DNA of 64,000 bases. Origin: Nocardiaceae bacterium (GTDB lineage Bacteria > Actinomycetota > Actinomycetes > Mycobacteriales > Mycobacteriaceae). Below the pieces are notes generated by a model. The model ran no database searches. It was given only the letters and a program-made list of their open reading frames with translations, and had not been told where the DNA came from. Made by a program: the position numbers and the translations under genes. This document shows positions 22,957 to 42,663 of the stretch, in pieces (the first letter of the stretch is position 1; each line of letters opens with the position of its first letter). The stretch covers positions 1 to 64,000 of the forward strand of contig JAJFUQ010000214.1 of NCBI GenBank assembly GCA_021372355.1, in the 5' to 3' direction.

Positions 22957-22976
22957 CCGATGACGAAGGGCCCTGT
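22957..22976. promoter_or_regulatory. DosR-like box before the USP at 23009
   Basis: CCGATGACGAAGGGCCCTGT contains GAC-N-AA-GG-CCC, matching the core of known DosR sites at about half of all positions. It ends 32 bases before the USP ATG. Confidence 0.4.
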
Positions 22977-23008: not shown

Positions 23009-23875
23009 ATGACTCTCGCAGACAGAACATCGATCGTCGCGGGCGTAGACGGCTCTGAAACGTCCGTCGACGCCGCACTTTGGGCCGCCGACATCGCCCA
23101 CCGCTTGCACGTACCGCTCGTCCTTGCGCACGCGGTCACGGACGCGGCGTACTTCTACACGAGCGCCGCTGTGATGGTCCAGTATCCACTCGGTGAATCT
23201 GAGCGCGAGGCCGCGCACGAGTGCTTGAGTTCCGCGCGCGACGCCGTCGCGAGAAGGTACCCCGACCTGCCACTTTCGACGTGGAGTCAGCGTGGCCCAG
23301 CCGATCTGGCGCTGATCGCCTTGAGCCGCAAAGCGCAGCTGATCGTCGTCGGTGCGCACAAGAACGTGTCCGCGGATTCGCTGTTACTCGGTACCACCGC
23401 AAGTCGGGTCGTCAACCACAGCGAATGCCCGGTCGCGGTATGGCGCGGGACAGTGGGCAACGGGCCGGTGGTCGTCGGCGTCGACGGCAGCCCGCTCAGT
23501 TCGCTGGCGGTCGAGCACGCATTCGAACTGGCGAGCGCTTTCGGGACCGGTGTGCGAGCTGTCCACTCATGGATCCCCGGGGTAACGAGTGATCTCGAGA
23601 AGGACAGCACCGAGCACGAAGCCCTGCTCTCGGAGAGCTTGGCCGGATGGACCGAGAAGTATCCCGACGTCCCGGTCGAGCGGATCGTGGCACCCGTGGA
23701 CGCGGAACAGTCGATTCCGCTTTACGCGGCGGCAAATGCCCGCCTGGTGGTCGTCGGTAGCCACGGACGAGGACGGGCTTCGTCTCTGCTGCTCGGTTCG
23801 ACGAGTCGCTATCTGATCAAGCACTGCCCCTGCCCGGTGCTCGTCTGCCGCAGCGCGATCCACGAACACGCGTGA
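23009..23875 (+). CDS. Universal stress protein, two USP domains
   Basis: 288 residues. Opening MTLADRTSIVAGVDGSETSV is nearly the same as in the USPs at 24901 and 41766, so the three form one paralogous set. Domain 1 has GAHKNVSADSLLLGTTA as its nucleotide loop (the second Gly of G-x2-G is replaced). Domain 2 has the complete GSHGRGRASSLLLGSTS. Probably a cytoplasmic ATP-binding stress protein. A cyclase-fold protein gene follows 10 bases later in the same operon. Confidence 0.91.
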   Translation: MTLADRTSIVAGVDGSETSVDAALWAADIAHRLHVPLVLAHAVTDAAYFYTSAAVMVQYPLGESEREAAHECLSSARDAVARRYPDLPLSTWSQRGPADLALIALSRKAQLIVVGAHKNVSADSLLLGTTASRVVNHSECPVAVWRGTVGNGPVVVGVDGSPLSSLAVEHAFELASAFGTGVRAVHSWIPGVTSDLEKDSTEHEALLSESLAGWTEKYPDVPVERIVAPVDAEQSIPLYAAANARLVVVGSHGRGRASSLLLGSTSRYLIKHCPCPVLVCRSAIHEHA

Positions 23876-23885
23876 CGTTCTGGCC

Positions 23886-24821
23886 GTGCCGTCGCTGATC
23901 GACCCCGCAGTCATTCGATGGCTGCTCGATGGCGATGTCGCAGTGCAGTTCCAGACCAAACGGGACCTGCTGGGCATCGTAGATGCAGAGTTGGGGCACC
24001 GCGTCTCCACCGAGGGGCGCGGAGCCGCACTTCTCGCCGCTCGCGTTCCGTCCGGACACTGGGGTCGCGGCTTCTATCAGCCGAAATGGACGTCGAGTCA
24101 CTACACGTTGCTCGAGCTGAAGAACCTCGCGGTCGATCGCCACAACGAACTCGCACGGGACACTGTCGAACTCATTCTGCAGAACGAGAAGGGCACTGAC
24201 GGCGGCCTCAACCCTGCGCGGCAACCGATGCCCAGCGACGCATGCGTGAACGGCATGGCGCTGAACTACTCGGCATACTTCGGCGGCGACCCCGAACGAC
24301 TCGGCAGCGTTGTCGATTTCATTCTTCGACAACAACTCTCGGACGGCGGTTTCAACTGCCGATACAACCGTTCGGGTGCCCGGCATTCATCGGTGCACAC
24401 GACGGTGAACATCATCGAGGGGATCACCGAATACGCCCGCAGCGGCTACCGATATCGCATGGACAGACTGCTCGAAGCACGTGGAGCCGCCATCGAGTTC
24501 CTCCTCCGGCACCGGCTGTATCGCAGCGAACGGACCGGTGCCCCGATGAGTCCCGAATTCACTCGGCTACACCATCCGGCGCGATGGCACTTCGATGTCC
24601 TCCGCGGGCTCGATGCACTCGCCGACGCCGGCGTGGCATTCGACGACCGGATGAAGGACGCCCTCACCGTGCTCGCGGGGCGACAGAGACCGGATGGACT
24701 GTGGGCAGCCAATCGAGGCTATCCCGGCGCCACGCATGTACCGCTGGAGGCGCCCGGACAGCCGAGTCGATGGATAACCCTGACGGCGCTGCGGGTTCTC
24801 CGTCGCTACCCGCAGAACTAG
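23886..24821 (+). CDS. Terpenoid-cyclase-fold (prenyltransferase/squalene oxidase repeat) protein
   Basis: 311 residues, GTG start. It contains repeats of the alpha/alpha-toroid type: EKGTDGGLNP, RQQLSDGGFNCR and RQRPDGLWAANRG, each a QxxDGGW/F-like turn. There is no DxDD or DCTAE cyclase motif, so it is probably not an active triterpene cyclase. Similar proteins of unknown role occur in actinobacteria. It lies in an operon with a USP (10-base gap), so a stress-linked role is inferred. No signal peptide. Confidence 0.7.
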   Translation: MPSLIDPAVIRWLLDGDVAVQFQTKRDLLGIVDAELGHRVSTEGRGAALLAARVPSGHWGRGFYQPKWTSSHYTLLELKNLAVDRHNELARDTVELILQNEKGTDGGLNPARQPMPSDACVNGMALNYSAYFGGDPERLGSVVDFILRQQLSDGGFNCRYNRSGARHSSVHTTVNIIEGITEYARSGYRYRMDRLLEARGAAIEFLLRHRLYRSERTGAPMSPEFTRLHHPARWHFDVLRGLDALADAGVAFDDRMKDALTVLAGRQRPDGLWAANRGYPGATHVPLEAPGQPSRWITLTALRVLRRYPQN

Positions 24822-24900
24822 CAACAGAGCCGCGAAAGGTCACTTCAACAGAGGCGATTCGACCCTATGGACATGCCGCGACAACGACGACAGTCAGGTC

Positions 24901-25758
24901 ATGACTCTTGCCGACAAAACCTCGATCGTCGCGGGTGTGGACGACTCGCAGACTTCCATTTCCGCGGCGTTGTGGGGCGCTGATCTGGCGCACCGTATGC
25001 ACGTGCCACTCGTCCTTGTGCACGCGGTGATGCTTCCCTCGTACTACGTGGCCAATGCGGCCGACCTCCCGATCGAGGACATGCAGGGCGTGAATGCTTC
25101 GAACGAGGCGAAGGAGCATCTCCACGCAGCGGAAGCGGCTGTCCGGTCCGCATTCCCCGACATCGAGCTCTCCACCTGGGGGCAATATGGCATGGCTGAC
25201 CTCGCGCTCGTCGGATGGAGCCGGCGCGCGCAGATGATCGTCGTCGGCGCGCATCGGCACACCTCCGCCAGTTCGCTCGTGTTCGGATCGACGACCGCGC
25301 GCGTGGTCAATCACAGCGAGTGCCCGGTGGTGGTATGGCGCGGGACAGTGGGCAGCGGGCCGGTGCTCGTCGGAGTGGACGGCAGCCCGTTGAGCGCACT
25401 TGCGGTCGAGCGGGCATTCGAGTTGGCGAGCTGGTACGGATGCCGTTTGCACGCGGTGCATGCGTGGGGCGCGGGGGTAGAAGGAGCCAGCCGAGATGCG
25501 GCCGAAGCCCTGCTCGCGGAGAGCCTCGCCGGCTGGCAGGAGAAGTATCCGGACGTCGAAGTCACGCAGTTGGCCGCCGCCCTGCGACCGGCTGACGCCT
25601 TCCTGGAGTACTCGCACCAGGCTCGGCTCATCGTCGTCGGCAGCCACGGTCGCGGACGTGCATCATCGCTGGTCCTGGGTTCGACGAGCCGCTTCTTGGT
25701 GCGCCACAGCCCGTGCCCAGTCATGGTGTGCCGCAGCGAAATCGACGGTCTGGCTTAA
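24901..25758 (+). CDS. Universal stress protein, two USP domains
   Basis: 285 residues, of the same subgroup as the USPs at 23009 and 41766 (opening MTLADKTSIVAGVDDSQTSI). Domain 1 loop is GAHRHTSASSLVFGSTT and domain 2 has the complete GSHGRGRASSLVLGSTS with G-x2-G-x9-G-S. Domain 2 begins GPVLVGVDGSPLSALAVERA. A P-type ATPase gene follows 19 bases downstream and is probably co-transcribed. Confidence 0.91.
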   Translation: MTLADKTSIVAGVDDSQTSISAALWGADLAHRMHVPLVLVHAVMLPSYYVANAADLPIEDMQGVNASNEAKEHLHAAEAAVRSAFPDIELSTWGQYGMADLALVGWSRRAQMIVVGAHRHTSASSLVFGSTTARVVNHSECPVVVWRGTVGSGPVLVGVDGSPLSALAVERAFELASWYGCRLHAVHAWGAGVEGASRDAAEALLAESLAGWQEKYPDVEVTQLAAALRPADAFLEYSHQARLIVVGSHGRGRASSLVLGSTSRFLVRHSPCPVMVCRSEIDGLA

Positions 25759-25777
25759 CACGAAGGGATGCTGACAG

Positions 25778-28141
25778 GTGTCTGAAGCAGTCGCTGTCGC
25801 CGAATCTCGAGACTTCGGCCGTACACGCCGATTCGCCAAATTCCTGCGCACGCCGAGCGCCGCGCTGCTGGTTTTGACGATCTCCGCGCTGTTCCTCGGC
25901 ATCGCGCTCAGCGCGGCGGGATGGACCACCGGCGCGCACTGGAGTTGGGCCGTCGCCACGATCGTGGCGACGGTGCGTGCGGTGTGGTGGGTGGTCGACG
26001 CCGTCCGGGGCGGCAAGGTGGGAGTGGATGCCGTCGCGGTCCTCGCTCTCGTCGGAACGCTGTTGGTCGGCGAGTACCTCGCCGGCGCGCTGATCGCGAC
26101 GATGCTGGCCACTGGCCGAGCGCTCGATTCTGCCGCCAGCCGCCGGGCGAACCGAGATCTCCGTGCGTTGCTCGATCGAGCGCCGAGGTCTGCCCGACGA
26201 ATTTCCGCGGCCGGCATTGAAACGGTCCCGATCGGTGACGTGCGGCCCGGCGACCTCCTTGCGGTCGGACCGGGCGAAACGATTCCCGTCGATGGCGAGA
26301 TCACCTCTCCGCTGGCCGTTCTCGACGAATCAGCGCTGACTGGCGAGCCGCTGCACACGCGTCTCGCCGAGGGCAGTCGCGCACGCTCGGGGGCGATCAA
26401 TGCCGGTTCGGCGTTCGAATTGCGGGCGTTGGTGACCGCGAACGAGAGCACCTATGCCGGGATTGTCCGGCTCGCGAAGGAGGCGGGCGCCGAGAGCGCT
26501 CCGGTCGTACGTCTCGCCGATCGGATGGCTGCCTGGTTCCTGCCGCTCTCGCTCGGCGTTGCGGGTCTCGCATGGCTCGTCACCGGCGATCCGATTCGGG
26601 CCGTCGCGGTACTGGTCGTCGCGACCCCTTGCCCGCTCCTGCTCGCTGTACCTGTCGCGATCGTCTCCGGACTCTCGCGGGCGTCACGGCTCGGTGTCGT
26701 GGTCCGCGGCGGCGGAACGCTCGAGCGACTTGGACACGCAACGACGCTGGTGATGGACAAAACCGGCACCCTCACCACCGGTCACCCGGGTGACGCCGAG
26801 GTCATCGCTGCACCCGGCCACGACCCCGGCGAGTTGCTGCGTATCGCGGCGAGCGCGGAACAGATGTCGCCGCACGTCATCGCCGGAGCGATCGTGCGCG
26901 AGGCGCACAAGCGCAACCTTCGGCTTTCGATGCCCGCCGCGGTCGACGAGGACCACGGCATCGGTGCGGCGGCCACCGTCGACGGCCACCGCATCACGGT
27001 GGGCGCCCTCGATCTACCGGCCGGCGCGCCCGCCTGGGCGCAGGCCATTCTCGAGCAGGCGGAACTGGACAACGCCGCCATCGCCTGGGTCACGATCGAT
27101 GGTTCGCTGGCGGGAGCCGTCCTTCTCCGTGATCCGCTGCGCACCGACGCCGCACACACCCTGCGCCGGCTTCGCTCGGCCGGGCTGACCCGCATGGTCA
27201 TGCTCACCGGCGACCGCACGGCACCAGCCGAAGAGATCGGACTGCGGCTCGGCCTCGATGTCGTCCGCGCGCATCAGACTCCCGCCGACAAGGTCGCCGG
27301 CGTGCGCGAAGAGTCGCTCCACGGCGTCACGGTGATGGTGGGAGACGGAGTCAACGACGCTCCCGCCTTGGCCGCCGCAGACGTCGGAGTCGCACTCGGA
27401 GCGCGGGGATCGACCGCGAGCTCGGAAGCGGCGGACATCGTGTTGACGAGCGAGCGAATCGATCGGCTCGCGGACGCCATGGACATCGCACGGCACTCGC
27501 GGCGAATTGCCCTTCAATCCGCCACCGTCGGGATGGGGCTGTCGCTGGTCGCGATGGTTTTCGCCGCCTTCGGATTTCTGCCGCCGGCACCCGGTGCGCT
27601 GCTGCAAGAGGGCATCGACGTGGCAGTCATCCTCAACTCGCTGCGCGCGATCCGGGGGCGGAGCCGGGCCACCGCCGCGCCCGTGCCGACCACCACGGTC
27701 GCCTTACTGCGGCAGTTCTCTCATGAGCACGAGAGTCTGCGCGAAAAGTTGAGCCTCCTGCCGGAGGCCGCGCGGGCCATCAGCCACAGAAGTTCCGGCG
27801 CGCTCTCAGCCTTGCTGGCCGCAGACACGTTCCTCGTCCAGGAGTTGCTCCCCCACGAGGACGCTGAAGAGACCGCGCTTTATCCGGAACTTGCCGCCCC
27901 GCTCGGCAGTGGTGAGGCCACGACGGCCATGAGTGGCACTCATGTCGAGATGGCTCGCTTGGCCCGCCGCATCCACGCCCACCGGAAAGCCGCCGAAGCC
28001 GCCGGCACAATCCGGCAGAGCCAGGTCGACGATCTCGTTGCGACCCTCTACGGACTTCATGCGCTGGCGCGCCTGCACTTCGCACAAGAGGAAGAGAACT
28101 ACTTCGTTCTCGCACTCGAGGATGAAGCGTCGAACGCTTGA
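25778..28141 (+). CDS. Heavy-metal-type P-type ATPase fused to a C-terminal hemerythrin domain
   Basis: 787 residues, GTG start. Residues 1-640 form a P1B-like metal ATPase without an N-terminal HMA domain: TGEP actuator motif, ion-site TPCPLLLA in a membrane helix near 285, phosphorylation site DKTGTLT with Asp near 327, and GDGVNDAP near 523. After the last helices, residues about 645-780 form a hemerythrin-type helical bundle with ordered His/Glu ligands (SHEHESL, LPHEDAEE, HVEM, HALARLHFAQEEEN), expected to bind a di-iron centre that senses O2 or NO. The transported ion is unknown. In an operon with the USP upstream. Confidence 0.88.
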   Translation: MSEAVAVAESRDFGRTRRFAKFLRTPSAALLVLTISALFLGIALSAAGWTTGAHWSWAVATIVATVRAVWWVVDAVRGGKVGVDAVAVLALVGTLLVGEYLAGALIATMLATGRALDSAASRRANRDLRALLDRAPRSARRISAAGIETVPIGDVRPGDLLAVGPGETIPVDGEITSPLAVLDESALTGEPLHTRLAEGSRARSGAINAGSAFELRALVTANESTYAGIVRLAKEAGAESAPVVRLADRMAAWFLPLSLGVAGLAWLVTGDPIRAVAVLVVATPCPLLLAVPVAIVSGLSRASRLGVVVRGGGTLERLGHATTLVMDKTGTLTTGHPGDAEVIAAPGHDPGELLRIAASAEQMSPHVIAGAIVREAHKRNLRLSMPAAVDEDHGIGAAATVDGHRITVGALDLPAGAPAWAQAILEQAELDNAAIAWVTIDGSLAGAVLLRDPLRTDAAHTLRRLRSAGLTRMVMLTGDRTAPAEEIGLRLGLDVVRAHQTPADKVAGVREESLHGVTVMVGDGVNDAPALAAADVGVALGARGSTASSEAADIVLTSERIDRLADAMDIARHSRRIALQSATVGMGLSLVAMVFAAFGFLPPAPGALLQEGIDVAVILNSLRAIRGRSRATAAPVPTTTVALLRQFSHEHESLREKLSLLPEAARAISHRSSGALSALLAADTFLVQELLPHEDAEETALYPELAAPLGSGEATTAMSGTHVEMARLARRIHAHRKAAEAAGTIRQSQVDDLVATLYGLHALARLHFAQEEENYFVLALEDEASNA

Positions 28142-28162
28142 GGTCGGATCGTCCGGAGCCGG

Positions 28163-28182
28163 GCAGTGACCTTCGTCCTGTT
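28163..28182. promoter_or_regulatory. DosR-like box before the USP at 28238
   Basis: GCAGTGACCTTCGTCCTGTT shares GTGACC-WW-CGTCC with the site at 15716 and lies 55 bases before the USP start. Confidence 0.45.
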
Positions 28183-28237
28183 GGTGGTCGACAAGCGACC
28201 CTCTGCAGCCTGGTCGCGACGCGAGAGCCTGTAGTCC

Positions 28238-29110
28238 ATGGGAACCAATGCACCAATCATCGTCGCTGTTGACGGCTCCGCGGCGAGCGAATCGGCGGCC
28301 CGGTGGGCGGCTCGCGAGGCTGCGCTGCACGCATCGCCACTGCGAATGGTCTACGTCGTCGACCGATCGGAGTACTTCATTCCGGGGTTCGGCAACCTCA
28401 GCTCGGGCATCGAATATGAGGACCCTTCCCGCGAAATCCTCGAGTCAGCGGCGGCGATCGCAACCGAATCCGCTGCCGGGATCCGCGCGATCGACATCAG
28501 CACCGAATCACTCGCCGGTTCCGTCGTCCCAAGCCTGCTGACGGAGTCCGCGACCGCCCGGATCATCGTCGTGGGCAACCGCGGACACGGCACCTTCTCG
28601 AGCGCGCTTCTGGGGTCGGTCAGTTCGGCTCTCGCGAGGCACGCCCACTGCCCGGTCGCGATCGTTCACGCGACAAAGTCGACGGAGGATCGCGGACCCA
28701 TCGTCGTCGGCGTCGACGGCACCGCCAACAGCGAACCGGCGATCGCAGTGGCCTTCGAGGAAGCCTCGCACCGCACGGCGCCACTTCTTGCCGTACACGC
28801 CTGGAGTGACGTCAGTGGGTCGCTTTCTTTCCGTCTCGATTGGTCCGCCGTCTCCACTGCGGAAGATCTCGTGTTGGCCGAGAGTCTCGCGGGGTGGCAG
28901 GAGAAGTTCCCGGATGTCACGGTTCAACGCGAGGTCGTCAAACACCAGCCTGCCCATGAGCTCTACAAGCGCTCCTTGAATGCTCAGTTGGTTGTCGTGG
29001 GCAGCCACGGTCGAGGTGGATTCGCGGGCATGCTGCTCGGCTCGACGAGTCAAGCACTGCTGCACTCAGTGGAGTGTCCGATCCTGATCGTCCGTGGTCC
29101 GGTCAACTGA
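28238..29110 (+). CDS. Universal stress protein, two USP domains
   Basis: 290 residues. Both nucleotide loops are complete: GNRGHGTFSSALLGSVS and GSHGRGGFAGMLLGSTS. It is a close paralogue of the USP at 16751, also of 290 residues. It stands alone between the ATPase-hemerythrin gene (96-base gap containing a DosR-like box) and a strong terminator, so it is probably its own transcription unit. Confidence 0.92.
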   Translation: MGTNAPIIVAVDGSAASESAARWAAREAALHASPLRMVYVVDRSEYFIPGFGNLSSGIEYEDPSREILESAAAIATESAAGIRAIDISTESLAGSVVPSLLTESATARIIVVGNRGHGTFSSALLGSVSSALARHAHCPVAIVHATKSTEDRGPIVVGVDGTANSEPAIAVAFEEASHRTAPLLAVHAWSDVSGSLSFRLDWSAVSTAEDLVLAESLAGWQEKFPDVTVQREVVKHQPAHELYKRSLNAQLVVVGSHGRGGFAGMLLGSTSQALLHSVECPILIVRGPVN

Positions 29111-31142: not shown

Positions 31143-31178
31143 CGGCACTGCGCGTTGACGGGGCTTTAGGCGCCCGGA

Positions 31179-31198
31179 TCAGGGACTATCGCCTCTCA
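31179..31198. promoter_or_regulatory. DosR-like box before the SDR/KAS III/WS-DGAT operon
   Basis: TCAGGGACTATCGCCTCTCA keeps the complete left half-site GGGACT and matches about 13 of 20 consensus positions. It lies 75-94 bases before the SDR start. Confidence 0.5.
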
Positions 31199-31272
31199 TC
31201 TCAGACCCCTCGAATTCGTAGCCTCGACCTCACACGTTGAAACAGGCCATTCATTGGTCCGAGGAGGATGCC

Positions 31273-32046
31273 ATGTCGAAGTACACCGGCAGAAGTGCCG
31301 TTGTCACGGGCGGAGCGCGCGGCATCGGCGCCGCGGTCGTCCGGGCCCTGGCAAAGGAGGGCCTCGGCGTGGTCATTGCGGACATCCGAGAAGCCGAAGG
31401 CGTTCGGTTGGCCTACGAACTGGGCGGCGACGTCTCGTTCCAGCACCTCGACGTCACCATGGAACACGACTGGACTCGAGTCCTGGAGGCCGCCGAAAGC
31501 GAATACGGTCCGTTGGCGGTTCTCATCAACAACGCCGGCATTCTCGACCTGGGCGGCGTCGCGGAGGTGCACCGGCCGATCTTCCGGCACGTCCTGGACG
31601 TGAATCTGTATGGCTCGTGGCTCGGAATCCACTCCGCGGCACCGCTGCTCGCCCGGGCAGGCGGCGGCGTCATCGTCAACGTCTCGTCCACCGCCGGCCT
31701 GATGGGCTACTCGGGACTCGCGGCCTACGTGACCAGCAAGTGGGGTCTACGGGGGCTCACCAAGGCGGCGGCCTTGGACCTCGCGCCCTCGGGAATTCGG
31801 GTGTGCTCGGTGCATCCGGGCCCCATCCGCACTCCGATGACTGCCGGGCTCGACGACAGTGTCGTTGCCGGTCAACCGATTCCGCGATTCGGAGAGCCGG
31901 ACGAGGTCGCAGCGATGATCCGGTTCGTGGCGATCGAGGCGACGTATTCCACTGGCTCGGAGTTCGTGGTCGACGGCGGCGCGACCACCGGCGCCGCGAT
32001 CCTCACGACGCCTAGCGCCGCCACGGACTTCCCCGTCGGTCTCTGA
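31273..32046 (+). CDS. SDR-family dehydrogenase (FabG / 3-alpha-hydroxysteroid dehydrogenase-like)
   Basis: 257 residues from the ATG at 31273 after a GAGGAGG ribosome-binding site. Complete classical SDR: TGGARGIG at the N-terminus, NNAGIL, Ser in VNVSSTAGL, and YVTSK with the catalytic Tyr and Lys. PGPIRTPM and VDGGATTG are the usual end motifs. Probably reduces a beta-keto or oxidises a hydroxyl group. First gene of an operon with two KAS III-like proteins and a WS/DGAT, so a keto-acyl substrate made by those enzymes is a reasonable inference. Confidence 0.88.
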   Translation: MSKYTGRSAVVTGGARGIGAAVVRALAKEGLGVVIADIREAEGVRLAYELGGDVSFQHLDVTMEHDWTRVLEAAESEYGPLAVLINNAGILDLGGVAEVHRPIFRHVLDVNLYGSWLGIHSAAPLLARAGGGVIVNVSSTAGLMGYSGLAAYVTSKWGLRGLTKAAALDLAPSGIRVCSVHPGPIRTPMTAGLDDSVVAGQPIPRFGEPDEVAAMIRFVAIEATYSTGSEFVVDGGATTGAAILTTPSAATDFPVGL

Positions 32047-32083
32047 TCACCGCCGCAGTTGACACCTTGAATCGAGGCACACC

Positions 32084-33187
32084 ATGACGAAGCAATGGCT
32101 GGTGATGGAGAGCGAGCGCAACCAGGCCCGTTCGCCCTATCGCACGAGAATCGCCGGAATCGGGCGCCACTTGCCGCCGACCCGCTTGACCACCGCGGAC
32201 CTGATGGCGTCGACGGCGCATACGACGCACGTCGACCTCGAGCGCCTCACCGGAATTCACGAGCGCCGGGTGTCCGTCGGCGACGAGGACTCGTTGAGTC
32301 TGGCGACGGCAGCGGCACTGGATTGCCTCCGGCACGCCGGGCGTGCGGGGGCCGATGTCGAGGTCGTGATCAATTGCAGCATCACCAAGTTCCGTGGCGG
32401 TTTGACCCACTGGCTGGAGCCGACCACCAGCATCGCGATCGCGGAAGCCATCGGCGCCCACGGCGCGATGACTTTCGACGTCTCGAACGCCTGCGCCGGG
32501 ATGCTGACCGGCGTGTCCATCCTCAACAATTGGATCCGTCAGGGCGTCGTCAAGAACGGCCTGGTGGTGAGCGGCGAATACATCTCGCAGGTCAGCCGCA
32601 ACGCCGCCAAGCACGTACACACGATCTTGAGCAAGGAACTCGCGTCCCTGACCGTTGGCGACGCTGGTGCAGCGATGCTCCTCGAGCGCGCCACTCCTGA
32701 CTCCGGCTCCATCACCGTGGCGGGCTTCACCACCATCGCCGATCACAGCCGCTTATGCCTCGCTTACCCGACGGGTGACGACCCGGGCGCACGGATGTTC
32801 ACGGATTCACGTGGGATCCACAAGGTCGCGATCGCGGACACCCCGATCCTGCTCGAGGAGGTCCTCGAGACCGCCGGGCTGGCGTTGCACGACATCGACC
32901 ACGTCGTCACCCACCAGACTTCAGCGCGCGCCATCCGGAAAGGCATGGCGGAATTGACCGCGAAGTTCGGCGATGCACCGGTCCATGACGCCGTCATCAC
33001 TGTCGACCGCTACGGCAACACGGCGTCCACCACGCACACCGTCGCGTTGGTCGAGGAATTCGAAGCTCACCGCATCCAGCCCGGCGAGACAGTGGCACTT
33101 GTCGCGCTCGCGTCCGGCCTCGAAATCGGTGTAGTTCTCTTCAATCCGGATAAGGAGTTGCTGGACAGCTATGGGAACGATCATTGA
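32084..33187 (+). CDS. 3-oxoacyl-ACP synthase III-like (KAS III) enzyme
   Basis: 367 residues, thiolase superfamily. The catalytic triad is complete: Cys137 in SNACAGM, His277 in THQTS and Asn312 in RYGNTAS. KAS III enzymes condense an acyl-CoA with malonyl-ACP or another acyl thioester. The length is slightly above FabH (about 320-335), nearer to the OleA/HMG synthase-like members. GAGG precedes the ATG. Its end overlaps the next gene by 17 bases, suggesting translational coupling and perhaps a complex with the KAS III-like half of that protein. Confidence 0.85.
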   Translation: MTKQWLVMESERNQARSPYRTRIAGIGRHLPPTRLTTADLMASTAHTTHVDLERLTGIHERRVSVGDEDSLSLATAAALDCLRHAGRAGADVEVVINCSITKFRGGLTHWLEPTTSIAIAEAIGAHGAMTFDVSNACAGMLTGVSILNNWIRQGVVKNGLVVSGEYISQVSRNAAKHVHTILSKELASLTVGDAGAAMLLERATPDSGSITVAGFTTIADHSRLCLAYPTGDDPGARMFTDSRGIHKVAIADTPILLEEVLETAGLALHDIDHVVTHQTSARAIRKGMAELTAKFGDAPVHDAVITVDRYGNTASTTHTVALVEEFEAHRIQPGETVALVALASGLEIGVVLFNPDKELLDSYGNDH

Positions 33188-35435
33188 GCAGGTCAGCGTT
33201 GCGAAACCCCACTGGCGCACTCCTAGCGCGCTGAGCCTCGCGGTCAGTGCCGCCCGGGATTGCCTGCGCGAAGCACACCGGGCACCCGACGATGTCGACC
33301 TCCTTGTCAACACTGGCCTTTACCGCGACCGCAACCTCGGTGAGCCTGCTCTTGCCGCGCTGATCCAAGAGGACGTCGGCGCTCATCCCGAAGATCCACA
33401 TGCGGGCTCGCACGGGACGTTCTCTTTCGACATCGGCAACGGAATATGCGGAGTTCTGACGGCCGCGCAGATCGCCGATGGATTTCTGCGGTCCGGCGCC
33501 ATACAGCGGGCACTTGTCGTGGCCAGCGACGCCGATCCGGGCTCGGGAATGAGCGACGACTTCCCGTTCGCTCCCGCGGGCGGCGCCATGCTGTGCACCT
33601 GGACTGAGCACGATCACGGGTTCGGAAAGTTCTACTGGGCGTCGAGGCCCGACAACGGTGACGCCTTTCGCGCGACCGTCGGGCTCCATGACGGCCACAA
33701 CGTCCTCCGTTTCGCCGGAAACGGCACGAAGGCCTCGGCGTATGCCGCCGTGGCTGCCGACGCGGTCGCGAAGTGCCTCGAGTCCGAGAACCTCCGCATC
33801 AATGACATCGACGTCATCGTGGCCGCGCCCGACGACCCGGATTTTCGGGCTGCTCTCGCCGACCGGATCGGTGCCCGACCGGAGTTCCTCGTTGGTGCAG
33901 GCCACAGTGCGCATACAGCGTCCCTGCTCTTCGGCATCGATTCGGTCATCGAATCCCTTACGCCCCACTCGACGGTCCTTTTCGTGGCCGCCGGCGCAGG
34001 CGTGACGGCGGGCGCAGTCCTCTATCGGACCGGGCCACTGACCGAGAAGACGCATCACGATCGAGAAGCGGCGGCGGCGGACCGTTTGTCACCGCTGGAT
34101 GCGGCGTTCCTGGAGATGGAGGATGCCGATCGGCACGTGAGCCTGGCGATCGGCGGTGTCACCATCGTTTCCGGGCCGGTGCCCGACAACGACGAGGTGA
34201 TGGAACTCCTCCCCAAGCGAATCGTGTCGATTCCGCGGTACCGCCAGCGACTGCGGTTCACCTCGCTCGATCTCGGAGCGCCCGAGTGGATCGAGGACAC
34301 GAATTTCGATTTCTCGCATCACATCCACCGCATCGCACTGCCCGCCCCGGGCGATGACGCCGCACTGTTCGACTTCGTCGCGGAGAACATGACGCATCGC
34401 CTCGACCGCGATCGGCCGCTGTGGGAGTGCTGGGTCATCGAAGGCTTGTCGAACGACCGTTGGGCGATCTTTGTCAAGCTCCACCACTGCATCGCGGACG
34501 GCATCTCGGCAGCGCATGCCTTGGCCAGCCTGTGTGACGAGGGCGAAGCCGAATCATTCGCGAATCGCATCCACCGAGACCCCACCTCGCATGCGCCACA
34601 TCTGCCCAGCCTCAATCCGCTCCGTTGGCCGGGTGAAGTGGTCCATGGGTCGCTCGGCGCAACCGCGGCGGTGTTCCGCGCGGCGACCGGGGCTGCCGAG
34701 ATCGCGACGAGCATCCTGTGGCCGTCGGCGAAGTCGACCCTGAATGGGCCGATCGCCAAGCAGCGCCGCTTCGCTGCCGCGCGAACGTCGCTCACCGACA
34801 TCGCCGAAGTGCAACGCGCATTCGGTGTGACGATCAACGATGTCGCGCTCGCCGCAATCACCGAGGCATACCGCGAATTCCTCCTGCGCCGGCACCAAGC
34901 ACCACACCCGGACATGCTGCGCACGCTGGTACCGGTGTCGATCCGTTCCACCGATGCTGCCGACGACCTCGGCAACCGCGTGTCGCTGATGATGCCGCTG
35001 CTGCCGGTCGACATCGCCGATCCGCTCGACCGGCTGAAGGCGGTGCATTCTCGCCTGCAACGCGCGAAGTCGTCAGGTCAGAGCGAGGCCGGCAGCTCCA
35101 TCCTCGACGCCACGCATTTCATCCCGTTCATGCTCACGGCACAAGCCGTTCGATTCCTCACCCACCTGCCGCAACGCGGCGTGGTCGCACTCGCGACGAA
35201 CGTGCCCGGCCCCAGCCGAACGCTGCACGTTCACGGCCGCGAAGTGATCGAAATGCTTCCGGTTCCGCCGATCGCGATGCGACTGCGAACGGGCATCGCG
35301 ATGCTCAGCTACACCGACACCCTCGGTTTCGGAATCACCGCTGACCACGACGCCGCGCCGGACGTCACCGAGTTCGCGGCCGACATCGAACGGGCGGTGG
35401 AACGTCTCGTCGCTCTCAGTCGCACGAAATCCTGA
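33171..35435 (+). CDS. Degenerate KAS III domain fused to wax ester synthase/DGAT
   Basis: 754 residues. Residues 1-290 have a KAS III/thiolase fold: FDIGNGICGVLTAAQ holds Cys93, but the histidine segment is AAPDD (219-222 region) and the asparagine segment is GHSAHTAS (244-251), so His and Asn are missing. A charged linker (about 291-303) joins a complete WS/DGAT domain beginning LSPLDAAFLEMED, with catalytic HHCIADG at 438-444 and NVPGPSRTLHV near 680. One uninterrupted frame. It probably works with the preceding complete KAS III and then esterifies the product. Confidence 0.88.
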   Translation: MGTIIEQVSVAKPHWRTPSALSLAVSAARDCLREAHRAPDDVDLLVNTGLYRDRNLGEPALAALIQEDVGAHPEDPHAGSHGTFSFDIGNGICGVLTAAQIADGFLRSGAIQRALVVASDADPGSGMSDDFPFAPAGGAMLCTWTEHDHGFGKFYWASRPDNGDAFRATVGLHDGHNVLRFAGNGTKASAYAAVAADAVAKCLESENLRINDIDVIVAAPDDPDFRAALADRIGARPEFLVGAGHSAHTASLLFGIDSVIESLTPHSTVLFVAAGAGVTAGAVLYRTGPLTEKTHHDREAAAADRLSPLDAAFLEMEDADRHVSLAIGGVTIVSGPVPDNDEVMELLPKRIVSIPRYRQRLRFTSLDLGAPEWIEDTNFDFSHHIHRIALPAPGDDAALFDFVAENMTHRLDRDRPLWECWVIEGLSNDRWAIFVKLHHCIADGISAAHALASLCDEGEAESFANRIHRDPTSHAPHLPSLNPLRWPGEVVHGSLGATAAVFRAATGAAEIATSILWPSAKSTLNGPIAKQRRFAAARTSLTDIAEVQRAFGVTINDVALAAITEAYREFLLRRHQAPHPDMLRTLVPVSIRSTDAADDLGNRVSLMMPLLPVDIADPLDRLKAVHSRLQRAKSSGQSEAGSSILDATHFIPFMLTAQAVRFLTHLPQRGVVALATNVPGPSRTLHVHGREVIEMLPVPPIAMRLRTGIAMLSYTDTLGFGITADHDAAPDVTEFAADIERAVERLVALSRTKS

Positions 35436-35482
35436 CGTTCCACCCCGACACCTGAATCCGTCAACGACTCGGCGACCGCACG

Positions 35483-35507
35483 GTTACCTCTGGGTGATCG
35501 CGGGTAA
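35483..35507 (+). promoter_or_regulatory. SigF-type promoter (GTTA-N15-GGGTAA)
   Basis: GTTA at 35483-35486 and GGGTAA at 35502-35507 with a 15-base spacer. It shows that the next gene must start downstream of about 35513, ruling out the GTG at 35494. Confidence 0.5.
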
Positions 35508-35553
35508 CGCAGTTCTGCCCGACGACGACGGTCTCCGAAAGGCAGGTGGCAGT

Positions 35554-36210
35554 GTGGGCACGTCACCACCCCGCGGGCAGTCCGATTCGGCACCGCTGTT
35601 GAGTGGGCCGCAGTCCGCGCCGCGGGTGCGGAACATTGCAATGGGCCTCGCTGATGTGAAATTCCGCGCCGCCGTGACACCGCAGATGATCGCCTCGATC
35701 TATGTCCTGTTCATCGGAGCAGTGCTGATGTTCTGCGTTTCCCTCGCGGTGGAACGATCCGAACCCGGAGTGAAGAACATCGTCGGCCTCGTGCTCATCG
35801 TGCCCGCGATCTTCATCGGGGCTGTGGTCTCGGCGCGGGTCGTTCTCGAGTTCGTGTTGACCATGTTTCTGCTCCGCGATCGCGTGGAGGAAATGCGCGA
35901 GTCGATCGAGTCGGTTCCACGTCTCGCCGACCAGATGACCGAACTCGTGGACAAGATCGCCGTCATGGCTGACACGATCTCGAAGGTCGGCGACAACATG
36001 GCCGGGATGGCTCACCAGATCGAGGATCTCACTGACCAGATGTCGTCGGTCACCGCGACGATCGAGAAGCTTGACGAGCAACTACCGGCCATCGTCGAAA
36101 ACACGACGAACATTCCCGCTCAGATCGGCGGTCTGCCATTTGACCAGCTCAAGCGCGGGTGGCGGACCATTCGTGGAAAGGTCCCGGAATCTGACGGCGA
36201 CGGCCGGTGA
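35554..36210 (+). CDS. Membrane protein with cytoplasmic coiled coil
   Basis: 218 residues from the GTG at 35554, chosen because of AAAGGCAGG upstream and the promoter position. Two membrane helices (about 45-67 and 78-102) are followed by a long helical heptad region: ESIESVPRLADQMTELVDKI through QMSSVTATIEKLDEQL. The layout is like a small chemoreceptor or scaffold without a signalling tip. No family recognised. The gene is convergent with GH15. A stress-induced membrane scaffold is only inference. Confidence 0.7.
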   Translation: MGTSPPRGQSDSAPLLSGPQSAPRVRNIAMGLADVKFRAAVTPQMIASIYVLFIGAVLMFCVSLAVERSEPGVKNIVGLVLIVPAIFIGAVVSARVVLEFVLTMFLLRDRVEEMRESIESVPRLADQMTELVDKIAVMADTISKVGDNMAGMAHQIEDLTDQMSSVTATIEKLDEQLPAIVENTTNIPAQIGGLPFDQLKRGWRTIRGKVPESDGDGR

Positions 36211-36222
36211 ACCCCGTTCCAG

Positions 36223-38001
36223 CTAGGACGCGGTTTCCTTGTCCATCGGATCGAGATCCGCGAGCCGCACTGCTGACTCCAACATGACCGCATGCACGAA
36301 CGCCTGTGGCAGATTGCCGCGCAACGTCCGTTGGTCGACGTCGTACTCCTCGGTGAACAGTCCGGCGGCACCGCACGCGGCACGATTGCGCTCGAACAGT
36401 CGGAGAGCCTCCACATCGTTCCCACACTGGTGTGTCACCCAGGCCATCGTGTAGCCGCACACCAGGAATGCGCCCTCGGCGTCAGCCAGCGGACGCGGGT
36501 CGACGCGGAAGCGGTACACGTAGCCATCGACGCACAGTTCGCTGCGTACGGCGTCGAGCGTGGCGCGGGTGCGCGGATCTCCGGCGGGAACGGCGCCGCG
36601 GGCGAGCGGCACCAAGAGCGCCGCGTCGACGCGCGGATCCTGTGGCGCACGTTGCCACCGACCGGTCGCGTGCAGGCAGTCGGTGGAGGTGTCGGCGACG
36701 ATCTTGTCGGCCAGGCTGTTCCATGCCGCCGCTTGCGGCGCGGGTGCGACAAGTCCCACCGAACGCAGACCAGCTGCGCAATTGAGCCGAGAGTGCGCCC
36801 ACCGATCGTTGTGGAGCTCCCAGATTCCACCATCTGGCTCCTGCCAGCGCTTTTCGATAACCGACACCGTCGTTTCGACCGCACGCCAGTCGACGGTGTC
36901 GAGCATGTCCAAGGGGGCCGCCGCGGCGAAGAGCAAGAGGGCATCGCCGAGTGCATCGAGTTGGAATTGTTCGTTGATCCAGTTGCCGGACTTGGGTCGG
37001 CCGCCTGGATACCCCGGCAGATCGATGTACTTCTCGGCCGGCACGCCATTCCCCGATGCCGTATACGCGGGTTGCATGTCGGGTCCGTCGGTGAGCACCC
37101 GTTCGGTGACGAAATGGACCAGGTCGGCGAGCAGTTGACCCTCGCCAACCGCCGCGACGGCTTGTCCCGCGTAGCACTGATCGCGTATCCAGGCGTACCG
37201 GTAGTCATAGTTTCGGTTCCGGCCGGACCGTTCGGGAAGAGACATCGTCGGAGCGGCGACCATGCCTCCGCTGTTGCTGGTCAAGCCCCGCACGACGGCG
37301 TAAGCCTGCTCCGCATCCCGATCGGCCAAACTGCCGGTCATCCGCGGTACCGCCCGGTTCCAGGAATGTTCGGTTGCGTGCCACGCGGGGCTGGGTTCCA
37401 CGGGCGCATCGGACAACTCGTTCTCCGCGATTTCCAGAACGATGTCGTGATAATCGCCCTCTCGGACGTCGACCATTGCACGCAGTTCTCCGGCTGCGTT
37501 GATCCGACCCTTTCGAGCGCCGGACAGCCGAACATGAAGCGCGCCGGAGCGCATCGTCCAGATGCCGTCGTTCTTGGCGATGTGCGTCATTCGGTGCTTT
37601 CCGAAGTTGGCACGTACGTCGAGAATCACCTCGACCTGGGCATCTCCTTCGGTGGCGATGATGCGCCGCATGAGTACCGCTCGGCGCGGGTCTCCGGGGT
37701 ACGCCAACGCTTCCCGGACGGTGACGACGCCGTCATCGCAGATCCATCGGTTCCGCCAGATCATCGAACGTTCTTCGTAGCTGCCGCCCCACACGAATCG
37801 CGACGAGTTGGGCTTCACTGCGAAGACGCCCGGACCACCGAGGAGTCCCGCGAAACACGCGTCGGACTCCCATCGGGGGGCGCACATCCAGGCGACGTTG
37901 CCCGTGGAGCCCAGCATTGCGCCGCGCTCGCCGTCGGCGATTGCCGAGTACGACCGCAGGGTCTGCGGGTGCTGAAACTCCCGGGCACGTTTCCTGGGCA
38001 T
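36223..38001 (-). CDS. Glycoside hydrolase family 15 protein (glucoamylase/trehalase-like)
   Basis: 592 residues from the ATG at 38001, with AAGGAGA nine bases upstream. Beta-rich N-terminal domain with the family opening YSAIADGERGAMLGSTGNVA, then an (alpha/alpha)6 barrel. NYDYRYAWIRDQCYAGQA is the conserved substrate-binding segment. GGIWELHNDRW supplies the probable general acid region, and TEEYDVDQRTLRGNLPQAFV the probable general base region. Mycobacterial relatives are trehalases, so trehalose hydrolysis is likely, but glucan substrates cannot be excluded. Confidence 0.87.
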   Translation of the reverse strand: MPRKRAREFQHPQTLRSYSAIADGERGAMLGSTGNVAWMCAPRWESDACFAGLLGGPGVFAVKPNSSRFVWGGSYEERSMIWRNRWICDDGVVTVREALAYPGDPRRAVLMRRIIATEGDAQVEVILDVRANFGKHRMTHIAKNDGIWTMRSGALHVRLSGARKGRINAAGELRAMVDVREGDYHDIVLEIAENELSDAPVEPSPAWHATEHSWNRAVPRMTGSLADRDAEQAYAVVRGLTSNSGGMVAAPTMSLPERSGRNRNYDYRYAWIRDQCYAGQAVAAVGEGQLLADLVHFVTERVLTDGPDMQPAYTASGNGVPAEKYIDLPGYPGGRPKSGNWINEQFQLDALGDALLLFAAAAPLDMLDTVDWRAVETTVSVIEKRWQEPDGGIWELHNDRWAHSRLNCAAGLRSVGLVAPAPQAAAWNSLADKIVADTSTDCLHATGRWQRAPQDPRVDAALLVPLARGAVPAGDPRTRATLDAVRSELCVDGYVYRFRVDPRPLADAEGAFLVCGYTMAWVTHQCGNDVEALRLFERNRAACGAAGLFTEEYDVDQRTLRGNLPQAFVHAVMLESAVRLADLDPMDKETAS

Positions 38002-38156
38002 GAATAATCGTCTCCTTCCGCGGGTGTCTCGCTGACGTCGGAAACTGCAGCCCGATCCAGGTGAGCCGCATCGCATGTTTGCCGTTAATTCACCGGTGCC
38101 CGACGCGGAACGAAGTCAAACGTGGCGAATTCCGGCTGGTGAGGGGCAAAGCCATT

Positions 38157-38182
38157 GATTCAAGTCCGGCACGTTCGGGTAG
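38157..38182 (+). promoter_or_regulatory. Possible SigF-type promoter before the DUF445 gene
   Basis: GATT at 38157-38160, a 16-base spacer, and GGGTAG at 38177-38182. The same GATT variant occurs at 1630. Confidence 0.35.
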
Positions 38183-38298
38183 GAGAACTTGAACAGGCCG
38201 TTGAACCGTCAAGCGGAAAGCCATTGCTTCCACGCGGCCTTCGGACCCGCGTTTTCCGTGTGGTCGCGCATCGTGATCTGGCGGAAGTTGAGGGAACC

Positions 38299-39576
38299 GT
38301 GCAAGAAATCGTCGACGACTTCCTTACTGAATGGCATTGGATTCCGTATCTGTCCGTCATCGCGATCGCCGGCCTGGTCGGTTATCTGACCAAAGTCGCG
38401 GCCATCGAGATGATGTTCAAGCCCATCGATTTCTGGGGCTTTCACCTCGGCAAGATTCCGGTGGGTTGGCAGGGAATCATTCCGTTGCGGGCCGCGCATA
38501 TGACGAGCGTGGCCACGAACAAGATCGTCGCTGACCTTCTCACCCCCGAGGAGGTCTGGTCGAAGATCAGCCCGGACGAGATGATCGCGGAGATTCAGGA
38601 GCCGCTCGAGAAATCCATCGACGCCATCGCTCAATCGGTGGCGATGTCGACGGCACCTGAGGTGTGGGGCAACATGCCCGCAGCGGCAAAAGACGCGATC
38701 CTGGCGCGAATTCGCAGCCGCGCACCCGCGGTGCTGCGCGACGTCATGGCCGACGTCGGGGAGAACGTCGACGAAATTCTCGACTTGAAGGCCCTGACGA
38801 CTCGCAGTCTGGTCTACGACAAGCGCCTGTTGCAGCGCGTTTTTCGAAAAGCCGGCAAGCGGGAGTGGCGGTTCATCCGAGCGTTCGGCGGGTTCGCGGG
38901 ACTCGCCATCGGAGTCATCCAGCTGGTGCTCTATTTGATCCTGCACATCCCTCTGATCAACCCCATCATGGGCGCCCTCAACGGGTTCCTCACGGACTGG
39001 TTCTGTATCAAGTTCCTTCTGTTCGAGCCCAAGAAGCCCAAGAAATACTTCGGTATGTTCACGTGGCAGGGACTCTTCCTCAAGTATCAGAAGGAAGCGT
39101 CCGCCGAACTCGCCAACATCGTTGCGGACAAAGTGATCACCGGCCATGCCGTCATCGACGTCATCGCGCGGGGTCCACGGGCGGATCGATTTTTCTTGAT
39201 CGTCGAGAATCGAATCGGCCGCATGATCGACGAGGAACTCGGATTCACTGCGCCCGCGGTCAAGGTCCTTGTCGGCACGGCCAATATCGAAAAGGTCAAG
39301 ACCCTGATGGCCGAAGAAGTGATGGCCACGCTGCCCGACCTGATGCGTCACGCCAGCGACTACATCGAAAAGACCCTCGACATCCGCAATGTCCTGTCGC
39401 AGCGCTTGGCCGATCTGCCGCCGGAGGAATTCGAAGGCGTTCTGCGTCCGGCGTTTCATCAAGACGAGTGGACCCTCATCGGCACTGGATTCGCCTTGGG
39501 CGCGGTTGCCGGATTCCTCCAGGACGGGGTGTTGCTGGCCAGCGGGATCAGCTGCCTCGACCTCAAATGCAAGTAG
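38299..39576 (+). CDS. DUF445 family membrane protein
   Basis: 425 residues from the GTG at 38299, with TTGAGGG upstream. An earlier TTG at 38155 would lie above the predicted promoter. Typical DUF445 layout: an N-terminal helix (WIPYLSVIAIAGLVGYLTKV), the family motif KPIDFWGFHLGKIPVGWQGI, a long cytoplasmic helical region, two central helices (GLAIGVIQLVLYLILHIPL), a second WQGLF repeat, and a C-terminal helix. Function unknown. It is followed 12 bases later by an Abi-alpha-like gene, probably in the same operon. Confidence 0.85.
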   Translation: MQEIVDDFLTEWHWIPYLSVIAIAGLVGYLTKVAAIEMMFKPIDFWGFHLGKIPVGWQGIIPLRAAHMTSVATNKIVADLLTPEEVWSKISPDEMIAEIQEPLEKSIDAIAQSVAMSTAPEVWGNMPAAAKDAILARIRSRAPAVLRDVMADVGENVDEILDLKALTTRSLVYDKRLLQRVFRKAGKREWRFIRAFGGFAGLAIGVIQLVLYLILHIPLINPIMGALNGFLTDWFCIKFLLFEPKKPKKYFGMFTWQGLFLKYQKEASAELANIVADKVITGHAVIDVIARGPRADRFFLIVENRIGRMIDEELGFTAPAVKVLVGTANIEKVKTLMAEEVMATLPDLMRHASDYIEKTLDIRNVLSQRLADLPPEEFEGVLRPAFHQDEWTLIGTGFALGAVAGFLQDGVLLASGISCLDLKCK

Positions 39577-39588
39577 GAAGGAACGAGA

Positions 39589-40521
39589 GTGAGCAGACCG
39601 TCCGGTGGCCCACATGAGCTGCAACCCCTGCCGCCGATCGCGCTGATACGCCGAATGGCGCGACAAGCCGCGTACACGTCCAACCGGCTACGCCACTTCC
39701 CCATCGAGAGCCTGGAATTCGCCGCACGGCTGAGCCCGTTCGCGACGGTGCGCACCTCGTTGGCGGTGACCGAAGCCTTGATGCGCCGGGCCTTGGGGGT
39801 GGCCGGGAATTCTGGGGAGACGGTCGCACCCCGCCTGTACCCCGGCGCGCGGGAGGGGCAGGACCGAGAGGCCTTCACCGCACCGCCCGATGCTCGGATG
39901 TCGGTTCATGCGATGGCGACGGAGTTGCTGGACCGGTCGGTTCGGCAGAGCCCGCGCCAAGCGGTCGAGGCGAACCAGAAGCGACTGCTGCTCCAATTGG
40001 TTCCGGATGAAGCCCGCATTCTGCACGTCATGGCGGATGGGAAGCCTCGTGTCATGGAATACGTCGGGCCGGGAACCATCGGACTTTCGATGGATCAGGT
40101 TCTGCTGCGATATGCCTCGCCGGTCGGCACGGAGGCCGGCGTTCGCTGCCTCGACGCGGTACCCGAGTACATCGAGCATCTGGTGAAGCTGAACCTCATC
40201 GACGTCGGTCCCGAAGACGAATCACTTCGCGAGCAGTACGAGATTCTCGACACCTTCGACGCGATCGAGGCCGCGGAGACGCGGTCCAAAGAGGCGTCCA
40301 CATCGATCGGCAAGAGGCTGAAATTGAAGACGGCCCGAATCGAGCGACACACGATCACCATCAGCGAACGCGGCAGAGACCTCTGGGAGGCGGCAAATCC
40401 CGATACCCACCGGTACGTCAAGGCCGAACAGTGGGAAGAACCCGACATCGACATGAGTAGGGACCTCCCGCCCGAGCCCGACAACGAAGGTGGGCAAACC
40501 GAAGAGCCGTCAAGGTCGTGA
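39589..40521 (+). CDS. Abi-alpha/DUF4393-like protein
   Basis: 310 residues, GTG start after AAGGAACGAGA. The middle part (about 115-235) has the DUF4393 pattern LLLQLVPDEARILHVMADGK with LVKLNLIDVGPED, seen in proteins annotated Abi-alpha. The N-terminal 100 residues are basic, and the tail is acidic and Pro-rich. Despite the abortive-infection name, no phage-defence partner is nearby. Its partner is the DUF445 membrane protein. Function unproven. Confidence 0.72.
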   Translation: MSRPSGGPHELQPLPPIALIRRMARQAAYTSNRLRHFPIESLEFAARLSPFATVRTSLAVTEALMRRALGVAGNSGETVAPRLYPGAREGQDREAFTAPPDARMSVHAMATELLDRSVRQSPRQAVEANQKRLLLQLVPDEARILHVMADGKPRVMEYVGPGTIGLSMDQVLLRYASPVGTEAGVRCLDAVPEYIEHLVKLNLIDVGPEDESLREQYEILDTFDAIEAAETRSKEASTSIGKRLKLKTARIERHTITISERGRDLWEAANPDTHRYVKAEQWEEPDIDMSRDLPPEPDNEGGQTEEPSRS

Positions 40522-40597
40522 ACTGGTCGCTTCGGGCAACAATCGCCATCGGTCGCACGACCGGTGCGATCGGCGACGAGGCATTAGGCTCGCACCG

Positions 40598-41758
40598 GTG
40601 AGCGAAACTGACGTGACGACGCCAGAATCCACTGACCGCGAGGCCGATCGCGGCACCTACATCGGCAAGGGTCTGATGTGGGTCGCCAAGTGGTGCGCCG
40701 CCCTGCTGGTGATCGCTGGCGCCCTGTGGGTGCTCGGCCTGGTCGTGGCAAAGCTGTGGTCCATCATTCTTCCCATCGTGCTGGCCGCGATCGTGGCCAC
40801 CGTTCTATGGCCGGTGGTGAAGCTTCTCGTCCGATTCAAAGTGCCATCCGGCGCGGCCGCAGCTGTGGCCACGCTCGGTTTCATCGGAGTGCTCGTCGGC
40901 GTCGTCGCCTTGATCGTTCCCTCGGTCGTCGATCAGGCGCCCGAGCTTGCCAACAAGGCAGCGGGCGGAATCGCGAAGATCCAGGACTGGCTGCACGGTC
41001 CGCCGCTCAACCTGGACGACAGTCAGTTGTCGACCTATACCGACGCGATCGTCGACAAGTTGCAGTCGAGCGCGAGCCAGATCGCCTCGGGGGTGTTCAG
41101 CGGCGTCGGCGCCGTGACATCGGCGCTGGTCAATCTCGTTGTCGTGCTGTTCTTGGCATTCTTCTTCGTCAAAGACGGACCGCGATTCCTGCCGTGGTTG
41201 CACTCGGTCGTCGGGTCCGGGTCAGGCGCTCATTTCGAGGTCGTGCTGTACCGCATCTGGAACGCGCTCGGCGGATTCATTCGAACGCAAGCGGTCGTGA
41301 GCTTCATCGACGCGGTCATGATCGGGCTCGGCCTGGTGATTCTGGACGTCCCGTTGGCGCTGGCCCTGACGGTGATCACGTTCCTCGGTGGGTTCGTGCC
41401 GATCGTCGGTGCTTTGGTCGCCGGGGCGCTCGCGGCTCTGGTTGCGCTCGTCGCCAACGGGCTCACGACGGCACTCATCGTGCTGGCGATCATCGCGGCG
41501 GTTCAGCAGATCGAAGGCAACGTGCTGCAGCCGATTCTGCAGAGTCGCTCGCTCAACCTGCACGCGGCCATCGTTCTGCTTGCGGTCACAGCCGGCGGTT
41601 CGCTCTGGGGAATCATCGGAGTGTTCCTCGCGGTCCCGGCCGCCTCGGTCGCCGCGGTCATCCTGCGTTACCTCGGCGAGCAACTCGACAAGCGAGCGGC
41701 TCCGCCGCCGCCACTGGAGAGCGAGCCGGAACTCGAGGATGTGGCCGCCGCGACCTGA
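40598..41758 (+). CDS. AI-2E family transporter (PerM-like)
   Basis: 386 residues from the GTG at 40598. About seven membrane helices with the PF01594 layout: two N-terminal helices (LWSIILPIVLAAIVATVLWP), an extended middle region, LAFFFVKDGPRFLPWL, and the C-terminal signature LNLHAAIVLLAVTAGGSLWG with IGVFLAVPAASV. Family members are exporters or permeases of varied small molecules. AI-2 itself is not implied in this lineage. The last 25 residues are acidic and cytoplasmic. Confidence 0.88.
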   Translation: MSETDVTTPESTDREADRGTYIGKGLMWVAKWCAALLVIAGALWVLGLVVAKLWSIILPIVLAAIVATVLWPVVKLLVRFKVPSGAAAAVATLGFIGVLVGVVALIVPSVVDQAPELANKAAGGIAKIQDWLHGPPLNLDDSQLSTYTDAIVDKLQSSASQIASGVFSGVGAVTSALVNLVVVLFLAFFFVKDGPRFLPWLHSVVGSGSGAHFEVVLYRIWNALGGFIRTQAVVSFIDAVMIGLGLVILDVPLALALTVITFLGGFVPIVGALVAGALAALVALVANGLTTALIVLAIIAAVQQIEGNVLQPILQSRSLNLHAAIVLLAVTAGGSLWGIIGVFLAVPAASVAAVILRYLGEQLDKRAAPPPPLESEPELEDVAAAT

Positions 41759-42643: not shown

Positions 42644-42663
42644 TTAGGGGCGAAAGTCCCCAG
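42644..42663. promoter_or_regulatory. DosR-like box before the USP at 41766 (best in window)
   Basis: TTAGGGGCGAAAGTCCCCAG is near-palindromic (GGGG-C-GAAAGT-CCCC) and matches about 16 of 20 positions of the DosR consensus, with the right half-site AGTCCC complete. Confidence 0.65.

Follow-up and report, generated by a model that had tools for sequence, protein, structure and literature searches.

Two kinds of KAS III heterodimer are relevant to the locus described here. PqsBC is a KAS III heterodimer in which one of the subunits has no catalytic triad. LstAB, which acts in lipstatin biosynthesis in Streptomyces toxytricini, is composed of LstA, with the triad C128/H271/N305, and LstB; the two form an obligate heterodimer and are soluble only if co-expressed (PMC12141560). 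LstAB condenses two acyl-CoAs without decarboxylation, and the E60A substitution in LstB abolishes the activity (PMC12141560). A third enzyme, OleA, catalyses the head-to-head condensation of acyl-CoAs in olefin biosynthesis; the base in the active site of one subunit is a Glu supplied by the other, and Glu-Pro at that place is a hallmark of almost all enzymes of OleA type (PMC7064751).

The locus lies in a 64-kb stretch of DNA from a member of the Nocardiaceae, the whole of which was analysed and is called the window below. It is comprised of the following features:

23009 to 29110, plus strand: surrounding DosR-type island that encodes universal stress proteins and a hemerythrin-domain P-type ATPase (Pfam), syntenic in the sister genome G001 at 73-85%
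31179 to 31198, plus strand: DosR-like box TCAGGGACTATCGCCTCTCA, found with a held-out DosR matrix, about 75-78 bp before the ATG of the SDR gene
31273 to 32046, plus strand: SDR, a FabG-like classical short-chain dehydrogenase (Pfam PF13561/PF00106, adh_short/adh_short_C2)
32084 to 33187, plus strand: KASA, an LstA-type KAS III (Pfam ACP_syn_III and ACP_syn_III_C, NCBIfam) with Cys137-His277-Asn312 and an OleA-type Glu112
33171 to 35435, plus strand: KASB::WS/DGAT, a single open reading frame of 754 residues in which WS_DGAT_cat and WS_DGAT_C come after a weak KAS III domain
33171 to 34040, plus strand: KASB domain, an LstB-type KAS III without the triad, the first ~290 residues of the fusion, with Glu58 (equivalent to LstB Glu60) and a shifted Cys93
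34086 to 35435, plus strand: WS/DGAT domain, residues 306-754 of the fusion (TIGR02946), with the motif HHCIADG at residues 438-444

The three genes follow each other closely, with a gap of 37 bases between the SDR and KASA genes and an overlap of 17 bases between the KASA and KASB reading frames. This arrangement had been reported, at the same positions, in a preliminary description of the locus, which had also recognized one KAS III with a full Cys-His-Asn triad and a second, degenerate one. Both assignments agree with the alignments: Cys137, His277 and Asn312 were located in KASA, and all three triad residues are missing from the KASB domain.

Whole-protein profile searches assign KASA and KASB to KAS III and to no finer family. 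When plasmids were searched by tblastn with the KASB domain as query, a match was obtained in a Streptomyces lipstatin-like cluster, which is called lipstatin-type on its gene content: a KAS III, a hypothetical protein, a CoA ligase, an SDR of the NAD-dependent epimerase/dehydratase family, an NRPS and a formyltransferase. KASA is 37% identical to the KAS III of this cluster over 343 residues, KASB is 34% identical to the adjacent hypothetical protein, and the closest full-length match tested for KASA is LstA. By sequence, KASA and KASB are thus related to LstA and LstB, the two subunits of LstAB. The likeness comprises adjacent genes, a large subunit with Cys-His-Asn and a small subunit that has no triad and carries the Glu essential in LstB. 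The locus differs from that of LstAB in having no CoA ligase, NRPS or formyltransferase, in its DosR-type context, in the fusion of the small subunit to WS/DGAT and in its separate clade.

The residues that are retained and lost in the two subunits follow a strict pattern. Glu112, Cys137, His277 and Asn312 are kept in all 74 aligned KASA sequences; Glu112 aligns with Glu117 of OleA, and the KASA Cys with OleA Cys143. In KASB, the canonical Cys site is occupied by T, A, S, P or I in 75 of 75 sequences and the His and Asn sites are unaligned or absent, whereas Glu58 and Pro59 are invariant (75/75). Glu58 aligns both with LstB Glu60 and with Glu112 of KASA, so that the OleA-type Glu-Pro is invariant in both subunits. 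Since KASB has lost its own triad but has an invariant Glu58, it is read as a partner that would donate this Glu, and is most likely a catalytic partner rather than a dead subunit. The residues shared with OleA stand beside clear differences: OleA is a homodimer, whereas there are two specialised subunits here and no oleBCD. A further conserved position is Cys93 of KASB (33447-33449 of the window), one residue past the lost catalytic Cys, which is present in 75 of 75 KASB sequences and also in the LstB-like protein.

In a tree of 36 sequences, the A and B subunits are split with a support of 100/100, and the lipstatin-type and Nocardia-type beta-lactone pairs fall on both sides. The pairing is therefore older than the DosR-linked group, the A subunits of which form a clade of their own (100/98). 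The preliminary description had compared the locus with PqsBC as a pair of an active and an inactive KAS III. The pair itself is borne out, and PqsBC does resemble it in being a KAS III heterodimer with a triad-less subunit; it has a different substrate chemistry, however, and PqsC is only distantly similar in sequence. LstAB, in which the catalytic Glu comes from the small subunit, is the appropriate comparison.

The second half of the fusion is an acyltransferase of the WS/DGAT family. In the profile search the WS/DGAT domain scores 415 bits against TIGR02946 (cut-off 310), and the catalytic motif HHxxxDG is intact as HHCIADG. The fusion does not result from a frameshift error, because the sister genome, which belongs to the same genus and was assembled separately, has the same fusion in a single open frame at 72% identity. 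Among 401 genomes of the family, no fusion was found outside these two; in the others that have close relatives, KASB is a separate protein, mostly of ~290-320 residues. The WS/DGAT domain shares 53-54% identity with mycobacterial WS/DGATs linked to the KAS pair, and two other WS/DGATs encoded by this genome match it at 29-41%. Besides the fused gene, the window carries another for a WS/DGAT (12538-13887), the product of which is only 29% identical to the fused domain. AlphaFold models, of modest confidence (mean pLDDT 68-69), confirm the thiolase and WS/DGAT folds and nothing further, and were kept out of the argument for a heterodimer.

The unfused pair is present in Rhodococcus (qingshengii, opacus, wratislaviensis, globerulus and koreensis), Antrihabitans, Hoyosella and many Mycobacterium species, and the 17-base overlap recurs in most of the Rhodococcus and Mycobacterium loci. 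Its neighbourhood was compared, in 68 loci of ~20 kb, with 20 control regions taken from genomes within the same family. Neighbours of DosR type (universal stress proteins, DosR/DosS, Acg-type nitroreductases or an Hsp20 protein) occur in 59 of the 68 loci and in none of the controls. A WS/DGAT with an identity of 45% or more accompanies the pair in 36 of the 68 loci and is seen in 0 of the 20 controls, and a KAS-linked WS/DGAT within 10 kb was detected in only about half of the loci. These counts are not independent, the species being phylogenetically related, although gene orders and orientations differ widely. The unfused pair comes without the ligase and ketoreductase that are found in beta-lactone clusters. 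In four mycobacterial loci (L136, L146, L168 and L174) KASA, KASB and WS/DGAT are unfused and in tandem, which is likely to be the arrangement that preceded the fusion. The link between the KAS pair and WS/DGAT that had been proposed on the single locus thus recurs, as a fusion in two genomes and as a related neighbouring gene in many of the others. Judged by homology and context, an LstAB-type enzyme has been recruited to hypoxia islands of Rhodococcus and mycobacteria, with a fusion to WS/DGAT in this genus. A head-to-head condensing enzyme of this type had been known from natural-product pathways.

The genome encodes a DosR orthologue, 74% identical to that of R. wratislaviensis, and a DosS-type kinase 86% identical to that of the sister genome. 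Together with the neighbours of the pair in other genomes, these proteins uphold the DosR-type setting assumed for the locus at the outset. The box upstream of the SDR gene, with the core GGGACTATCGCCTC beginning at 31182, reaches a score of 13.9 under a DosR matrix derived from other genomes, with the KAS upstream regions left out of the training. It ranks fourth among all sites in the 64 kb, and its score was reached by 5 of 4000 simulated 130-bp stretches. The SDR orthologue of the sister genome has a near-identical box, TCAGCGACTATCGCCCCTGA, at the same position. In other genomes, a DosR-like box upstream of KASA exceeds the 95% level of random stretches at 48 of 80 loci, mostly 60-130 bp before the start codon. 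A scan with a simple DosR consensus did not separate the KAS upstream regions from shuffled sequence or chance, whereas the trained held-out matrix did. By consensus, a further box at 31157, 22 bp ahead of the first, seemed to make up a tandem site; the first trained matrix gave it a score of only 2.6, and it was dropped. Further DosR-like sites in the window are at 42644, 52456, 30490, 22957 and 28163. At least those at 22957, 28163 and 42644 are directly upstream of universal stress protein genes. As a whole, the window resembles an extensive DosR-type island, and the gene set is probably part of a DosR-type response that would be induced in hypoxia. The searchable literature, outside which most subscription papers lie, yielded no DosR regulon study that names these KAS III genes. 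The P-type ATPase of the island (25778-28141), which has its hemerythrin domain at the C-terminus, is 84% identical to that of the sister genome.

The association of the SDR with the pair is of a different kind. Its orthologue in the sister genome (86% identity), which is also preceded by a flavodoxin-like gene, is located ~18 kb from KASA and the fusion, and there these two sit behind two universal stress proteins. The junction between the SDR and KASA genes is therefore particular to the genome described here. The box belongs to the SDR, and the genes that precede the KAS cassette are not the same in the two species. The preliminary description had rightly seen a DosR-like box ahead of the operon, one that is conserved and scores better than chance, but had ascribed to the operon a box that the SDR retains where it is far from the KAS genes. 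The three-gene order is conserved neither in the sister genome nor in the other loci examined. From the SDR to the next universal stress protein gene the distance is ~0.8 kb in the sister genome and ~9.7 kb here (32084-41758 of the window). The ~9.7-kb stretch contains the KAS cassette and genes of DUF4282, GH15, DUF445, Abi_alpha and AI-2E type, which suggests an insertion or relocation.

From the family membership, the residues, the fusion, the context and the box, we infer the heterodimer, its chemistry, its product and its induction. The explanation that probably holds is that a heterodimer of LstAB type carries out a non-decarboxylating condensation, the product of which is esterified by WS/DGAT as part of the hypoxia response. 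KASA and the KASB domain would pair as LstA and LstB do. Cys137 of KASA would take one acyl chain, and Glu58 of KASB, reaching into the KASA active site, would act as general base and take a proton from the alpha carbon of the second acyl-CoA. A Claisen condensation without decarboxylation would give an alpha-alkyl beta-keto acid, which could either lose its carboxyl group to become a long-chain ketone or undergo reduction, whether by the SDR or by a different reductase. The hydroxyl product would then most likely be esterified by the WS/DGAT domain, held beside the condensing enzyme by the fusion; esterification is the likely fate of this compound because the operon has no beta-lactone ligase. 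The fusion suggests a direct hand-over from the condensing enzyme to the acyltransferase, the acceptor specificity of which is not readable from sequence; relatives may simply make triacylglycerol. The scheme makes a sharp prediction: one Glu of an apparently dead enzyme should be essential. More tentatively, many non-tuberculous mycobacteria and rhodococci may make an undescribed class of storage or membrane lipids in hypoxia, in which head-to-head condensates of fatty acids, formed independently of polyketide-synthase condensation, are esterified by a dedicated WS/DGAT. The condensates might be alpha-alkyl beta-hydroxy acids, similar to mycolic acids of short chain length, or else long-chain ketones or secondary alcohols. 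Such a lipid, if it is made, would be a dormancy lipid class beyond triacylglycerol.

The scheme shares much with the dedicated dormancy lipid pathway of the preliminary description, in which the KAS pair makes a beta-keto chain, the SDR reduces it and WS/DGAT esterifies it at once. The KAS pair, the link to WS/DGAT and the DosR-type context of that proposal stand; the SDR as a dedicated step is weakened. The operon spacing in this genome and the ketoreductase step that follows LstAB in lipstatin biosynthesis speak for such a step, as do SDRs with identities of 42% or more in the vicinity of the pair, which in L136, L146 and L168 lie downstream of WS/DGAT. They occur, however, in only 5 of 68 loci compared with 0 of 20 controls, which is not significant (p=0.27), the sister-genome SDR has its own box at a distance of ~18 kb, and the family of the SDR differs from the epimerase/3beta-HSD-type reductases of beta-lactone clusters. 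The three-gene pathway is rather unlikely on this balance; the SDR is weakly supported as a member and may serve the pathway, for which the operon is poor evidence. Tgs1 of M. tuberculosis resembles the fused domain at the family level, as a WS/DGAT in a DosR-type island; it is not fused, and no KAS III pair has been described with it. That this DosR-controlled enzyme is a triglyceride synthase (PMC11876180), and that KASB and WS/DGAT are separate genes of varied orientation in the same island in most species, would be in keeping with a WS/DGAT domain that makes ordinary triacylglycerol in hypoxia, with KASB as a tether or regulator and the KAS pair engaged in a separate step. The fusion in two species of this genus, the tandem genes of several mycobacteria and the retention of the predicted catalytic Glu in the fused KASB make this unlikely.

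The remaining two alternatives concern the chemistry of the pair. For whole KASA the top scores are those of general KAS III/FabH profiles and of FabH structures, as would be expected if the enzyme performed a decarboxylative condensation or plain acyl transfer, like FabH or PqsBC, with KASB purely structural; with LstA as the closest full-length match tested and the OleA-type Glu-Pro invariant in both subunits, this is improbable. Still less credence is given to a beta-lactone pathway of the nocardiolactone or lipstatin type with its ligase and reductase elsewhere in the genome. Relatives of the pair in Nocardia and Rhodococcus, 32-37% identical and in the same gene order, do adjoin an AMP-binding ligase and a 3beta-HSD-type SDR. 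These nocardiolactone-like clusters have a ligase, a reductase and MmpL, whereas WS/DGAT and dormancy genes are found here. The operon encodes neither an LstC/OleC-type AMP-forming ligase nor an LstD/OleD-type ketoreductase, a genome-wide search for the ligase and reductase of the lipstatin cluster gave best matches of no more than 28-30% identity, located on other contigs, and the separate clade of the DosR-linked A subunits also argues against such a pathway.

Two observations were made among the more distant relatives. In one beta-lactone-type cluster of Nocardia (L098, 14022-15206), a 395-residue protein with no Pfam match is encoded between the reductase and MmpL genes and could be a diverged acyltransferase. 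At two other loci (L218, 5767-11109; L219, 6887-12109), from genomes of this family, proteins of ~1750 residues combine condensation, adenylation and carrier domains with a pair of KAS III-type regions in a single chain; KASB is matched at ~30% by the second of these regions, so that a KAS III pair is found within an NRPS-like module.
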